Positions 30,789-61,215 of a stretch of 64,000 nucleotides of DNA are shown piece after piece. The notes under the pieces were generated by a model. It was not told the origin of the DNA, did not search any database, and saw only the letters and a list, made by a program, of their open reading frames with translations. Source of the stretch: Euzebya pacifica (GTDB lineage Bacteria > Actinomycetota > Nitriliruptoria > Euzebyales > Euzebyaceae); NCBI RefSeq assembly GCF_003344865.1, contig NZ_CP031165.1, forward strand, positions 3,415,910 through 3,479,909, in the 5' to 3' direction. Made by a program: the position numbers and the translations under genes. Each line of letters begins with the position of its first letter. Within the stretch, counting starts at the first letter, position 1.

Positions 30789-32274
30789 GCGGCAGCGAGG
30801 GCTGGATGGCCTCGGCGTCGCGGGCCAACGACCGCACCATCGACGTGAAGATGGGCCCGTGGAAGGGCACCAGCACCCACCAGTAGAGCCGCCCGATCAG
30901 CCCCCGCGGGGCGAAGAGGGCGCGCTGGTGGAGGACGGTCCGGTCCGGCCCGTCGGGTTCCAGCCGGAACTCCAGCCACGCATCGCCGGGCAGCCGCATC
31001 TCCGCGCGCAGCCTGACCAACCGGTCGGGCGCCAGCGCCTCGACCCGCCAGAAGTCCAGCGCGTCCCCGGGTCGCAGGTCGTCGGGGTCTCGCCGGCCGC
31101 GCCGCAGCCCGACCCCACCGACGAGCCGGTCGACCCAACCACGCATGGTCCAGGCCCACATGTGGGTCGGCCAGCCCCGGTCGCCACCGATCCGCGACAC
31201 GGCCTCGTACACCGCGGCGGCGGAGGCCGCTGCGGTCTCGGAGCGGACGTCGCGCAGCAGGACGCCGCCGGACCACTCCGGGTCGCCCGGATAGGGCTCG
31301 GCAGGGCTGCGACCGGCGAGCGCCGCGTCCCGCCACGACGTCTCGACCTCGCGATCGGCGACGCGCTGGAGCGCAAGCCGGAGGGCGGTCTCGTAGGGCA
31401 GACAGGGTTCGGGGTCCAGGTCCTGACCGGTCTCGTGGCCGTCACGGACGACGACGTCGACCGACAGGCTCTGCACGAGGGGCTTCGCCAGGCCGAACGG
31501 GACCGGCGTGACGACGTTGACCCAGTAGCTGGACAGGGTCGGGGTCAACGCCGGCACGGTCAGGATGGCGCGCTTGCGCAGGCCAGCGACGGCGGCGTAG
31601 CGCTGCATCATCTCGCGGTAGGTCAGCACGTCGGGGCCACCGATGTCGTAGTCGTGGCTGGCCGTGTCCTGCGTGTCCATGGCGGCGATCAGGTAGCGCA
31701 GCACGTCGCGGATGGCGATCGGCTGGACGCGGGTGTCGATCCAGCGGGGGCAGACCATGAACGGCAGCTTCTCCGTCAGGTGGCGCAGCATCTCGAACGA
31801 CGCGCTGCCCGAGCCGATGACGACGGCCGCTCGCAGCACGGTGATGGGCACCGCGCCGTCCTTCAGCACGTCGGCGACCTCGCCCCGGCTGGCGAGATGG
31901 GCGGAGGAGTCGTCGTCGACCTCACCCAGGCCGCCGAGGTACACGATCCGCTTGACCCCGGCGGACTCCGCGCAGGCCGCGACGTGGTCGGCGGCGCGAC
32001 GGTCGGCCGAGGCGAAGTCGTCGGCCGTGCCCATCTGGTGGATGAGGTGGTACACGCCCTCGCAGCCCTCGACGGCAGCGGCGACGTCCTCGGCGACGGT
32101 GGCGTCACCGGCCACGACGTCGACCTTGTCGTGCCACCCGTGTTGGGCCAGCTTCTCGGGCGACCGGACGAGGCAGCGGACGCGATAGCCGGCCTCCAGC
32201 AGCCGCGGCACCAGACGACCCCCCACGTAACCGGTCGCTCCGAGCACGCAGACGGTCTTCTGAGGGGAGTTCAT
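30691..32274 (-). CDS. NAD(P)-binding SDR-like protein fused to DUF2867
   Basis: 527 aa with two parts. Residues 5-300 are an atypical SDR (NmrA/complex I NDUFA9-like): VCVLGATGYVGGRLVPRLLEAG as cofactor loop, VKRIVYLGGLGE, PITVLRAAVVIGSGSASFEMLR and YDIGGPDVLTYREMMQRYA. Residues 330-500 match DUF2867: FWRVEALAPDRLVRLRAEMRLPGDAWLEF and LYWWVLVPFHGPIFTSM. Such fusions are common in actinobacteria and are often annotated as NAD-dependent epimerase; the true substrate is unknown. TACAAC about 7 bases before the ATG may be its -10. The C-terminal 33 residues are encoded in the overlap with the glycosylase gene. Confidence 0.82.
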   Translation of the reverse strand: MNSPQKTVCVLGATGYVGGRLVPRLLEAGYRVRCLVRSPEKLAQHGWHDKVDVVAGDATVAEDVAAAVEGCEGVYHLIHQMGTADDFASADRRAADHVAACAESAGVKRIVYLGGLGEVDDDSSAHLASRGEVADVLKDGAVPITVLRAAVVIGSGSASFEMLRHLTEKLPFMVCPRWIDTRVQPIAIRDVLRYLIAAMDTQDTASHDYDIGGPDVLTYREMMQRYAAVAGLRKRAILTVPALTPTLSSYWVNVVTPVPFGLAKPLVQSLSVDVVVRDGHETGQDLDPEPCLPYETALRLALQRVADREVETSWRDAALAGRSPAEPYPGDPEWSGGVLLRDVRSETAAASAAAVYEAVSRIGGDRGWPTHMWAWTMRGWVDRLVGGVGLRRGRRDPDDLRPGDALDFWRVEALAPDRLVRLRAEMRLPGDAWLEFRLEPDGPDRTVLHQRALFAPRGLIGRLYWWVLVPFHGPIFTSMVRSLARDAEAIQPSLPPTSTGAPTAPDEGHDEAWSPPARDLPPARRAG

Positions 32275-37779: not shown

Positions 37780-37789
37780 TCAGGCCGGC
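37770..37789. terminator. 20-bp palindrome spanning both convergent stop codons
   Basis: GCCGGCCTGATCAGGCCGGC is perfectly self-complementary. It contains CCG GCC TGA on each strand, so the cyclase and the opposing protein both end Pro-Ala-stop and the stop codons abut with no spacer. As RNA it would form a stem with a tight loop, a probable bidirectional terminator. Confidence 0.6.
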
Positions 37790-39864
37790 ACGACCTTGGC
37801 CACCGTGCCGCCGATGCCGAGCACGTAGACCTCACCGCTGTGGTCGACCCCGAACCCCACGGGGCTGTCGATGTCGATGCCGAGGTCCGCGATCTGCGTG
37901 ACGTCGCCGTCCTGGACGAGGATGGCGCGCACGTCGCCGCGGCAGAAGTCGGCGAACACGTAGGCGCCGGTGAGCTCGGGGATCGCGGTGCCCCGGTACA
38001 CCACCCCACCGGTGACCGAGCAGTTGCCGCCGCTGCGGGGGTACTCGAAGACCGGCGGGACGTGACCGGGGGCCGAGCCACCACCCGGGCCGGCCTGCGT
38101 GCCCTCGAACACGGGCCACCCGAAGTTGCTGCCCGCGCCGGTACCCGCGGCGAGCCAGTCGATCTCCTCCACCGCTCCCTGTCCCACGTCGCCGATGTAG
38201 AGGTCCCCGGTGGCGTCGTCGAAGGAGAACCGGTAGGGGTTGCGCAGGCCATAGGCCCAGACCTCGGGGGCGCCGCCCTGACCGTCGGCGAAGGGGTTGT
38301 CCGGCGGGATGTCGTAGCCGTCGGCCGTGGGGGCGATGCGCACGAGTGAGCCCAGCAGGGTGAACGGGTCCTGGCCGTTGTCGAAGTCGTCGTTGCTGCC
38401 GCCGCCGTCGCCGAGGGACCACCACAGGTAGCCGTCGGGGCCGAGGTGCAGGTCGCCGCCGTTGTGGTTCGACGCGGGCTGGTCGACCCGGATCAGCTCG
38501 CGTCGGCTGGCCAGGTCGACTGAGTCGCCGGTGATGGTGAAGGCGTCGATCACCGAGTCACCGGCGCGGTTGGTGGAGGAGACGTACAGCGTCTGGCCGT
38601 CGCCGGAGAAGTCGAACCCGAGCAGGCCACCCTCGCCGCCGGTCCCGACGGTGCTGCTGATGTCCAGGACGGTCCGTGGCTGGGCGGTGCCGACGGTCCG
38701 GATGATCCCCGCTCGTTCCCCGATCCACAGCTCACCGGTGTCCGGCCTCGGCCGGAGGGTCAACGGCGCCGCGAAGGATCCGACGGTCTCGAGCGCCACG
38801 TCGGCTGCAGCCAGGTCCGGCCCGGTCGGTGGTTCCGGGGTGGGCCCGGGCGACGCGTCGGGCGGCACCGCCGGTCCGACCGCGAGGACCGTGACGCGTT
38901 CGCCCTGGACCCACGACGCGGACGCTGCCGTCAGCCCGTTGTCGTCGGCATACAGGATCGGCCTGGACTGCTGGCCCGCCAGGGGTGCGGCGGCGAAGAG
39001 ATAGGCCCAGCTCGTGCCGGCGTACCCGTTGCCGGCCGCCACGCCGTCGCCTGCATCGTCGCCCCAGACCTGGTCGGCGATGGCCACGGCCGTGGCGTCG
39101 CGGGCCGGACCCGCGATCCGTCGCACCGGCGCGATCTCGGCCGCCGACTGCTCGACGGCCGTGGACAACGCTGCTTCGCCGCCGAGCAGGAGGATCTCGG
39201 TGGGCGCGTGCCGACGGAGCGCGTCGGCGGTGCGCGCGTCCAGGGCGTCGGTGGGGGTGATCAGGATGCGGCTGTTGGTCAGGGCGGCCCACGAGCCGAT
39301 GGCGGCGGAGTCCGCCCAGTCGTCGTCGCGCACCAGGACCACGGTGTCGGACTGGTCACCGACCGCATCGGCCACCGCGACGGCCGTGTCGATGCGGGTG
39401 GCCCCGTCGAGGCGGCGCATGCAGTACCCGAGCTCGGCCACCGCCTGTTCGACGGCCGTGCTGACGGCCGCGTCACCGCCGGCCAAGTAGACCTGCGGTG
39501 CGCCGCCCACCTCGCAGCGGCCGGGTCCGAGCGCCCGCTGCAGCTCCTCCAGCATCTCCTGACGGGGCTGCGCATCGGCACCGCCGGTGGTCAGCAGCAG
39601 CGTGCCGAACCGGCCGACCAGGGCGGTGGCGGCGAGGTTGTCGACGAACACGTCGTCACGACCGATGACCGCGTGGGAGGCCATGCCGTCGGCGTGCGCG
39701 GCCGTGCTGAGCTGCACCGCGCCGATCACCGGGTCGAGGTCGTCGCCGATCCGGCCGTCCTCCTGGGCGTCCGCGCGGCTGCCGACCAGCGGCACGAGCA
39801 GCGCCAGGGCGAGCAGCGCGACCATCAGGCGGGTGCGTGAGGACATCGAAGGGGCAGGGCTCAT
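37780..39864 (-). CDS. cell-wall-binding repeat 2 / sugar-dehydrogenase-like fusion, secreted
   Basis: 694 aa with signal peptide (RLMVALLALALLVPLVGSRADA). Residues 45-330 carry cell wall binding repeat 2 units: QVYLAGGDAAVSTAVEQAVAELG and RRLDGATRIDTAVAVADAVGD, then EILLLGGEAALSTAVEQSAAEI and RRIAGPARDATAVAIADQVW. After a Pro-rich linker, residues 355-694 form a PQQ-type glucose/sorbosone dehydrogenase beta-propeller: LWIGERAGIIRTV, GLLGFDFSGDGQTLYVS, PASNHNGGDLHLGPDGYLWWSLGDGG, EVWAYGLRNPYRFSFD, GDVGQGAVEEIDW. It is coupled to the lipoprotein paralogue (ATGA at 39861). Likely sits on the cell wall; PQQ use and substrate are not certain. Confidence 0.85.
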   Translation of the reverse strand: MSPAPSMSSRTRLMVALLALALLVPLVGSRADAQEDGRIGDDLDPVIGAVQLSTAAHADGMASHAVIGRDDVFVDNLAATALVGRFGTLLLTTGGADAQPRQEMLEELQRALGPGRCEVGGAPQVYLAGGDAAVSTAVEQAVAELGYCMRRLDGATRIDTAVAVADAVGDQSDTVVLVRDDDWADSAAIGSWAALTNSRILITPTDALDARTADALRRHAPTEILLLGGEAALSTAVEQSAAEIAPVRRIAGPARDATAVAIADQVWGDDAGDGVAAGNGYAGTSWAYLFAAAPLAGQQSRPILYADDNGLTAASASWVQGERVTVLAVGPAVPPDASPGPTPEPPTGPDLAAADVALETVGSFAAPLTLRPRPDTGELWIGERAGIIRTVGTAQPRTVLDISSTVGTGGEGGLLGFDFSGDGQTLYVSSTNRAGDSVIDAFTITGDSVDLASRRELIRVDQPASNHNGGDLHLGPDGYLWWSLGDGGGSNDDFDNGQDPFTLLGSLVRIAPTADGYDIPPDNPFADGQGGAPEVWAYGLRNPYRFSFDDATGDLYIGDVGQGAVEEIDWLAAGTGAGSNFGWPVFEGTQAGPGGGSAPGHVPPVFEYPRSGGNCSVTGGVVYRGTAIPELTGAYVFADFCRGDVRAILVQDGDVTQIADLGIDIDSPVGFGVDHSGEVYVLGIGGTVAKVVPA

Positions 39865-41195: not shown

Positions 41196-41262
41196 CGCGC
41201 CGAGCCTATGAGCGTGCCGATCCCCCGGCAGGACACGACCCCGACGACCTGCGAAACCCCGG

Positions 41263-41291
41263 TTGCCGTACGAGGTGGAGGGGCGTACGGT
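41263..41291 (+). promoter_or_regulatory. promoter of the Thr leader/thrS unit
   Basis: TTGCCG (41263-41268), 17-base spacer, TACGGT (41286-41291). Predicted start at about 41298, exactly the GTG of the leader peptide. This would be a leaderless message, common in actinobacteria. Confidence 0.65.
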
Positions 41292-41297
41292 CGACCC

Positions 41298-41357
41298 GTG
41301 ACCAACCACGCGCATGTGCAGACGACGACGCCGGAGCGATCCGGCGTGCTCGTGTAG
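41298..41357 (+). CDS. Thr-rich leader peptide of the thrS attenuator
   Basis: 19 residues, VTNHAHVQTTTPERSGVLV, then TAG. Four of 19 codons are Thr, three in a row (ACG ACG ACG at 41322-41330). Start GTG lies 6 bases after a -10 box, where transcription would begin. The stop precedes a strong terminator stem by 15 bases, and a short threonyl-tRNA synthetase follows. Position and codons match classical attenuator leaders (trp, thr, his). No protein function is expected; ribosome stalling at the Thr codons is the signal. Alternative ATG frames starting 41314 run into the synthetase gene and look non-coding. Confidence 0.7.
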   Translation: MTNHAHVQTTTPERSGVLV

Positions 41358-41384
41358 GCCACAGACCGACACACACCCCGGGTC
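41331..41384 (+). promoter_or_regulatory. alternative RNA pairings of an attenuator
   Basis: Two exclusive pairings can be drawn. Protector: CCGGA (41331-41335) with TCCGG (41340-41344). Antiterminator: GATCCGGCGTG (41338-41348) with CACCCCGGGTC (41374-41384), 10 of 11 positions paired counting one G-U. The second uses the right arm of the first and the left arm of the terminator. A ribosome stalled on the three Thr codons would cover the protector's left arm and allow the antiterminator. Confidence 0.65.
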
Positions 41385-41407
41385 CACGCCCGGGGTGTCG
41401 TCGTTTT
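41373..41407 (+). terminator. intrinsic terminator of the attenuator
   Basis: Perfect 10-bp stem ACACCCCGGG (41373-41382) / CCCGGGGTGT (41389-41398), 6-base loop, then CGTCG and TTTT at 41404-41407, the only T-run in the region. It lies between the leader peptide and the synthetase start. Confidence 0.7.
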
Positions 41408-41458
41408 CGTGGCGTCCTCGCCGGGATCGGGCCCCGGACACCAGAGAGGACCAGCCAG

Positions 41459-42724
41459 ATGAACCCACCCTCCACCACCGTCCACGACCACGTTCAGGAC
41501 AACGCCCTGCCCGACCACCGCCGGATAGGTCGACAGCTGGGCGTCTTCGCCACCGATGAGTCCCTCGGTGCCGGGCTGCCGCTGTGGCTGCCCGCCGGGG
41601 CGGCCATCCGCTGGGAGGTCGAGCGCTACATCGTCGAGCTCGAACGCCGGCACGGGTATCGCCACGTCCACACCCCGGTGCTGGCCAAGCGAGAGCTGTA
41701 CGAACGTTCCGGTCACTGGGCCCACTACCGCGACGACATGTACCCACCGATGGACGTCGGTGGTGACCAGGTCGTGCTGCGACCCATGAACTGTCCCCAT
41801 CACGTCCTCGTCTTCGGCGCCGAGCGGCCATCGCTGGGCGAACTGCCCTACCGCCTGGCCGAGCTCGCGCCCATGTTCCGCTTCGAGCGTTCCGGCGTGG
41901 TCGGCGGCCTCTCGCGGACCCGTCAGATGACCCTGTCCGACGGCCACGTCTTCTGCACCCCCGACCAGATCCACGACGAGATCAGCGACATGCTCAGCAT
42001 GGTCGGTGCGGCCTACGACACCCTCGGGATCCCACGACCTCGGTTCCGGCTGTCCCTGCGTGACGAGGGGCCCAAGTTCGTCGACGACGACGACATGTGG
42101 GCCCGCAGCGAAGCGGCGTTGCGGTCCACCCTCGTCGACCACGGCCTTCCCTTCACCGAGGCACCGGGCGAGGCCGCCTTCTACGGGCCCAAGATCGACC
42201 TGCAGGTCAGCGACCCCCAGGGACGAGAGGAGACCCTGTCGACCATCCAGGTCGACTTCCACCTTCCCGAACGGTTCGACCTGTTCGCCGAGCACGGACC
42301 GCACCGGGTCATGCCCGTGATGATCCACCGGAGCATCGTCTCGACCATGGAGCGCATGGTGGCGCACCTGCTGGAGGTCCACGACGGGGCGATGCCGCCC
42401 TGGCTCGCCCCGGTGCAGGTCCGCGTCGTACCGATCGAGCCGCTCCCGTCGGGTCATGTGGCTGCCGTCCGGAACGCGTTCCTTCGTCGAGGGCTGCGAG
42501 TGGACGTCGATGCCCGCGACGCGACCCTCGGTGCGCGGATACGGCAGGCCAGGCTGGACAAGGTCCCGTGGACCGCTGTGGTCGGCCCTCGAGAGGCGGC
42601 CGACGGCACCGTCGCCCTGCGGCTGCGATCGGGTGCGCAGCGCCCACCAGCGGCGTTGCAGTCCACCGCCGACGCCCTCGGTGCGCTCGTGGACAGCCGC
42701 TCCCCCGACCTGTGGCCCGCCTGA
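41459..42724 (+). CDS. thrS: short threonyl-tRNA synthetase without TGS and editing domains
   Basis: 421 aa, about 220-250 fewer than normal ThrRS. The catalytic class II core starts near residue 28 and the anticodon-binding domain spans about 308-415 (VRVVPIEPLPSGHVAAVRNAFLRRG in parts). The zinc ligands that select threonine are kept: Cys112 (LRPMNCPHH), His163 (LSDGHVFC) and His290 (PVMIHRSIV). Motif 2 Arg (FRFERSG) and motif 3 Arg (TMERM) are also kept, so it should be active. It cannot hydrolyse Ser-tRNAThr without the editing domain. GAGAGGA lies 9-14 bases before the ATG. Probably a second copy; a full-length ThrRS is expected elsewhere in the genome. Confidence 0.9.
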   Translation: MNPPSTTVHDHVQDNALPDHRRIGRQLGVFATDESLGAGLPLWLPAGAAIRWEVERYIVELERRHGYRHVHTPVLAKRELYERSGHWAHYRDDMYPPMDVGGDQVVLRPMNCPHHVLVFGAERPSLGELPYRLAELAPMFRFERSGVVGGLSRTRQMTLSDGHVFCTPDQIHDEISDMLSMVGAAYDTLGIPRPRFRLSLRDEGPKFVDDDDMWARSEAALRSTLVDHGLPFTEAPGEAAFYGPKIDLQVSDPQGREETLSTIQVDFHLPERFDLFAEHGPHRVMPVMIHRSIVSTMERMVAHLLEVHDGAMPPWLAPVQVRVVPIEPLPSGHVAAVRNAFLRRGLRVDVDARDATLGARIRQARLDKVPWTAVVGPREAADGTVALRLRSGAQRPPAALQSTADALGALVDSRSPDLWPA

Positions 42725-60926: not shown

Positions 60927-60998
60927 GTGCGCTCCAGCGGTGGTCGAGTCAGCGTCCTCGCCCCGATGCGGTGGCGAAGGGTGACCCCCGCTGTTCCT

Positions 60999-61167
60999 GG
61001 CCTGAGAGCTTCACCGCCCGGGTGCGGACGGCTTTCCCCTTCGGCGCCGGCCAGCACTGGCCGAGCTCTTCAGCGTGCGCCTGATCGGGCGGTCCGGGTG
61101 CCTGAGAGTTTCCGGGGCGGTTGCTCCTTCGGCGCCGGTCGAGGTGGATGCCCGACCGATCTCTCCC
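60999..61167 (-). ncRNA. tandem glycine riboswitch
   Basis: On the minus strand, aptamer 1 runs from GGGAGAG (61167-61161) through GGCGCCGAAGGAGCAA to CTCTCAGGCA (61108-61099). Aptamer 2 runs from AAGAGCT (61070-61064) through GGCGCCGAAGGGGAAAG to AGCTCTCAGGCC (61010-60999). Both show the GCGCCGAAGG and CUCUCAGG cores of the gcvT glycine motif, and the P1 stems pair (GAGAG/CTCTC; AAGAGCT/AGCTCTC). They lie 73-240 bases before the gcvP start, the usual position. Activation by glycine is typical of the class. No obvious terminator stem was seen between aptamer 2 and gcvP, so control may be translational. Confidence 0.93.
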
Positions 61168-61215
61168 GCGCGACCGTGGCGGCGCAGCCCTGAGGGTAGC
61201 GCAGCGAGCCGCCCG

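Follow-up and report, generated by a model that had tools for sequence, protein, structure and literature searches.

The nearest described relative of the element reported here is thrL (MKRVRPFLETTPGFVPAR, then a stop codon) of Streptomyces lividans TK24; the 2021 reannotation of this strain placed it before thrS (SLIV_19412/19410) and mapped it by RNA-seq as leaderless, termination being left unclear (PMC8079986). The sequence-only reading of the present DNA had stated that no Thr leader was described for thrS, which is wrong in view of this entry. Shared features are a leaderless Thr leader (ending in TTPGFVPAR and stop in S. lividans), one hairpin and the position 5' of thrS, and the S. lividans peptide shares the consensus of the leaders found here in relatives; the differences are that one strain and a two-Thr leader were given there, with no comparison, antiterminator, link to a short paralogue or member of the class studied here, whereas our copy has three Thr codons and a TTTT tract. 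Judged by its leader peptide, SLIV_19410 would be the short paralogue discussed below.

Auxiliary trpS of Streptomyces (attenuation: Vecchione and Sello 2010, as cited in PMC4787780, ref. 57; trpL2 in PMC8079986) is likewise an inducible synthetase paralogue attenuated through codons of its own amino acid; the codons are Trp instead of Thr, and the control was demonstrated experimentally for trpS and is proposed for the present thrS. The T-box system of Bacillus subtilis thrZ/thrS (Putzer 1992, as cited in PMC4787780, ref. 56) also induces a second ThrRS gene by uncharged tRNA-Thr, but senses the tRNA directly. Mycobacterial poly-Cys attenuators (Canestrari 2020, as cited in PMC9031893 and PMC13236596) are leaderless short ORFs with repeated sensor codons controlling a downstream gene; they differ in the codon (Cys), the target (cysteine genes) and the translational output, which was shown by experiment. 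In Actinobacteria, Seliverstov et al. (2005) described attenuators at trpS and leuS and no conserved RNA structure for threonine genes (PMC1262725); these and the LEU element of leuA share a leader peptide and alternative helices with our locus, one alternative helix of the LEU element involving the Shine-Dalgarno sequence. The same survey corrects the earlier remark that the T-box is the usual device for synthetases in this phylum: unusual T-boxes occur at ileS, and classical attenuators at trpS and leuS. A Thr leader before thrS (S. lividans) and trpS/leuS attenuators in Streptomyces are thus already known; new here are the breadth of the family, its restriction to a short ThrRS paralogue and two extra helices (P4 and P5).

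The window, i.e., the whole 64,000-nt stretch of Euzebya pacifica DNA analysed (NZ_CP031165.1, 3,415,910–3,479,909), contains the following elements (AT, antiterminator; SD, Shine-Dalgarno):

41253–41258 (+): GAAACC box, 33 nt 5' of the −10; possible WblC/WhiB7-type element
41263–41291 (+): promoter, TTGCCG (41263–41268), 17-nt spacer, TACGGT (41286–41291)
41298–41357 (+): thrL-like leader-peptide ORF, probably leaderless, 19 codons, GTG start (VTNHAHVQTTTPERSGVLV, then stop)
41322–41330 (+): sensor codons, three Thr codons ACG ACG ACG
41328–41347 (+): P1 protector hairpin, 8 bp, ACGCCGGA (41328–41335)/TCCGGCGT (41340–41347), GCGA loop
41338–41384 (+): AT, 41338–41348 pairing with 41374–41384, 10 of 11 pairs, one of them G-U
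41367–41407 (+): P2 terminator-like GC hairpin, 11-bp core 41373–41383/41388–41398, then TTTT (41404–41407)
41384–41412 (+): candidate P4, 5 bp, CCACG (41384–41388) with CGTGG (41408–41412)
41411–41456 (+): P5 SD-sequestering helix, GTCCTC (41414–41419)/GAGGAC (41446–41451) and GGC (41411–41413)/GCC (41454–41456)
41446–41450 (+): SD sequence GAGGA of the short thrS
41459–42724 (+): short threonyl-tRNA synthetase, 421 aa, the genome's second ThrRS; ATG start at 41459

The P2 core could be extended to 41367–41403. The promoter boxes read earlier (GTG 41298 lies six bases after TACGGT), the 19-residue leader with its three ACG codons and the antiterminator with its 10 of 11 pairs were found as described; the protector hairpin and the terminator hairpin with TTTT are also present, but with stems of 8 and 11 bp, not 5 and 10 bp.

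Domain search of the 41459–42724 product gave the class II core (PF00587) and the anticodon-binding domain (PF03129) only; the TGS and editing domains of bacterial ThrRS were not found in its 421 residues. The product scored above the TIGR00418 threonine--tRNA ligase cutoff, and its best match among solved structures was 1nyq, threonyl-tRNA synthetase 1, which we take to be the S. aureus enzyme. A second ThrRS match was detected elsewhere in the genome (6.37 Mb, 2 contigs) as a 690-aa open frame, 45% identical. Because this full-length copy exists and the editing domain is absent, 41459–42724 is, by its sequence, an auxiliary, editing-less ThrRS, and the full-length thrS lies elsewhere; the regulated gene had been correctly named as a threonyl-tRNA synthetase, but it is the auxiliary short paralogue and not the housekeeping thrS. 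In a tree of 32 sequences, a single branch (support 100/99) sets the 21 short enzymes apart from the full-length ThrRS; the zinc ligands Cys/His/His and the motif 2/3 residues are kept in all 21. Distribution of the short gene is patchy: one congener (G023) gave a full-length match only. In two loci (L006 and L010, from genomes G007 and G028) the short thrS carries an in-frame stop or a frameshift behind an apparently intact leader, and is either a pseudogene or an assembly error.

Relatives of the locus were drawn from 66 genomes of the window's class and 48 GTDB loci. Short thrS genes from 54 loci were examined, 8 from the window's class and 46 from other actinomycetes (Streptomyces, Nocardia, Amycolatopsis, Kribbella, Frankia, Nocardiopsis, Microtetraspora, Stackebrandtia, Prauserella); L039 and L078 encode full-length ThrRS and were left out of the leader statistics. 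A uORF with a Thr run followed by a GC hairpin was present in 54/54 of these loci, i.e., in two deeply separated lineages; the run comprises 3–5 codons (2 in one Nocardia), the remaining peptide being variable. A strict scan (TTT-uORF plus hairpin) recovered 51 of the 54 leaders, gave no further match in 719,692 strand-bases of the relatives' loci and found a leader upstream of 0/23 full-length thrS genes. Applied to the 64-kb window, it returned two matches, the thrS leader and one at 31916 on the minus strand; the latter was rejected, as it lies inside a real minus-strand coding gene. A covariance model whose training set was limited to actinomycetes detected the window leader (34.4 bits). 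Among 396 genomes of the phylum, all matches of at least 39 bits, and the window match, precede a short thrS; other matches below 39 bits do not, with one doubtful locus of the 37.8-bit class.

The T-box model RF00230 gave no match in the window or in the short-thrS loci scanned, and a T-box riboswitch was rejected as an explanation of the window leader; no Rfam family covers the leader in the loci scanned. The only T-box detected (L039, 1865–2095) lies 5' of the full-length thrS of Caldibacillus, whose product is the non-actinobacterial ThrRS nearest to the short clade in the 32-sequence tree. Elsewhere in the window, tandem glycine riboswitch aptamers (RF00504, 60 and 43 bits) were found at 60987–61178 (−).

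P1, AT and P2 are mutually exclusive, and covariation supports P1, AT and the terminator-like P2, for AT between lineages only. In the loci listed, the start of P1 lies 4–9 nt past the first Thr codon, and in 52/54 loci P1 exceeds codon-order shuffles in strength; for P2, 98.5% of alignment cells were paired, with 34 double-changed cells (0/500 shuffles). The AT geometry is the same across relatives, and a C.C mismatch is kept in most copies; near it, the outer position X2:Y10 is A-U, G-C, U-A, C-G or U-G according to lineage. Within actinomycetes AT is nearly invariant and showed no covariation, changes being seen only between lineages. In the window alone, AT was not beyond chance in its GC-rich leader (47/500 shuffles; 656/2000 random 21-mers), and the case for it comes from comparison only. 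Residues after the Thr run are diverse in the window's class (TTTPERSGVLV, TTTGTCPA, TTTTGAVPEV, TTTTTGLPPA) with P1 and AT kept; because they differ among class members, the Thr codons and not the peptide are, as far as sequences tell, the kept feature. The U-tract after P2 varies (TTTT in the window, T6–T7 in some Kribbella, poor or absent in many relatives). Conservation of both the Thr codons and the exclusive stems in the aligned relatives supports the earlier proposal of a Thr-codon attenuator before a ThrRS gene.

We consider it likely (probability about 0.85) that the locus is a ribosome-mediated Thr-codon attenuator turning on the auxiliary editing-less ThrRS when charged tRNA-Thr is scarce. 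Sequence comparison shows the leader with its Thr codons, both hairpins (P1 and P2) and the AT geometry; from them we infer control of thrS by leader translation, the output used and the physiological trigger. Transcription would start on or at the leader GTG, and a 70S ribosome would trail RNA polymerase. When Thr-tRNA is plentiful, this ribosome would reach the stop codon and cover the AT strand, P2 would form and thrS would be off, either because transcripts end at TTTT or because the SD-sequestering helix P5 is left intact, or both. When Thr-tRNA is scarce, through starvation or inhibition of the housekeeping ThrRS, it would stall on ACG-ACG-ACG with the 5' arm of P1 covered; the 3' strand of P1, now free, would capture the 5' arm of P2, P2 would be pre-empted and the short thrS expressed.

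Equilibrium folding of the window leader with ribosome masks showed no switch, P2 standing at ≈0.98 in all states. Nascent RNA was modelled by partition function on a transcript truncated where the P2 loop ends, to represent the RNA emerging from the polymerase; AT probability in the window: 0.98 (ribosome at Thr1), 0.99 (Thr2), 0.38 (Thr3), 0.00 (no ribosome), 0.04 (ribosome at the stop codon); mean of the 54 loci: 0.85 (Thr1), 0.18 (no ribosome), 0.43 (stop). The switch was absent in this test in a few relatives (L007, L010). Since P2 wins at equilibrium whatever the ribosome position, the decision would be kinetic.

Two further readings were weighed. That P2 is an ordinary terminator or an mRNA-stabilising hairpin, with an incidental ORF in front, would agree with the frequency of GC-rich hairpins and with the chance-level strength of the window AT taken alone; it is extremely improbable, as the Thr run, the leaderless start, the P1 placement and the AT geometry are kept across 54 loci, whereas 23 full-length thrS genes lack them. 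The peptide might instead act itself, as an arrest peptide or a functional micro-protein, and the actinomycete form M[K/Q]RA...TTTPExVPAR is indeed highly conserved; that conservation, however, also takes in third codon positions, a requirement of RNA pairing, and the divergence after the Thr run in the window's class, at constant P1 and AT, further makes this very improbable.

The output of the Thr-codon attenuator is a separate matter. Termination, proposed earlier, is consistent with the 11-bp hairpin and TTTT, but is not established as the sole output in view of the equilibrium stability of P2, the downstream helices and the S. lividans leader, which has no U-tract (PMC8079986). It is possible, if rather doubtful, that translation is the main target of the leader, with P2 and AT gating an anti-sequestor (P4) that displaces the SD-hiding P5, with intrinsic termination unneeded. 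In actinomycetes P4 joins the last part of the P2 5' arm and the loop to a strand downstream of P2 (e.g., GGGCGAGTG/CACTCGCCC), and this strand or the one next to it can also form P5 with the SD; in 43 of them 93% of cells were paired (42–54% when slid), with 37 double-changed cells (0/500 shuffles), and it was read by eye in several new sequences outside the alignment. Its 3' partner lies at least 3 nt beyond P2 (mostly 8–14) and would thus be made after any termination decision; because a helix that draws on sequence past the terminator would hardly serve termination by itself, the output may be translational or dual. The CTCGC strand of Streptomyces has two alternative partners, the P2 loop (P4) and the SD region GCGAG (P5), the SD helix energy is −14.8 vs −10.3 for 292 control SDs, and the leaderless poly-Cys uORFs of mycobacteria offer a precedent for translation attenuation. 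Against this stand the moderate covariation of P5, with weak alignment counts and a register that differs between lineages; a window P4 of 5 bp only, unrecognisable in congener L005; and the TTTT of the window and T6–T7 of some Kribbella after P2, as in intrinsic terminators. Swap tests of P5 gave modest differences only; the window P5 (GTCCTC/GAGGAC) is a good helix, equalled in strength by 6/500 shuffles. Tentatively, the thrL family may be a relay of five helices through which a single leader ribosome governs transcription termination as well as translation start; the P2 loop strand would mimic the SD region and, once P2 is pre-empted, pull the anti-SD strand off (P4 vs P5). P4 and P5 thus hint at a possible additional translational output, for which the window copy makes the weakest case.

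In 53/54 loci a −10 of the form TAnnnT precedes the leader start by 5–9 nt, vs 0.5% of control ATG/GTG codons, and because of this spacing the leader is probably transcribed leaderless. Several Streptomyces relatives carry a GAAAAC/T box 33 nt before the −10; the window GAAACC has the same spacing and is identical in congener L005, and is not an exact match to GAAAWY. S. coelicolor thrS2 is presumably SCO3778. GAAAWY is the motif of the WblC antibiotic-response regulon, of which S. coelicolor thrS2 is a member (PMC7157823). The boxes suggest a possible second control layer at the promoter, via a WblC/WhiB7-like element. The window region 37783–39864 (−) encodes a secreted protein with CWB2 cell-wall-binding repeats joined to a glucose/sorbosone dehydrogenase domain; a second dehydrogenase-like gene, on the minus strand from 39861 onwards, is divergent to the thrS leader.

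For the family, the finding means that a widespread but patchy editing-less ThrRS would be tied, in much of Actinomycetota, to a single ancient sensor that reads Thr-tRNA charging through codons. This suggests leader peptides as the actinobacterial device for backup synthetases, in place of the T-boxes of B. subtilis. Because S. coelicolor thrS2 belongs to the WblC regulon (PMC7157823), the switch may have a part in tolerance of ThrRS inhibitors and of translation-targeting antibiotics.
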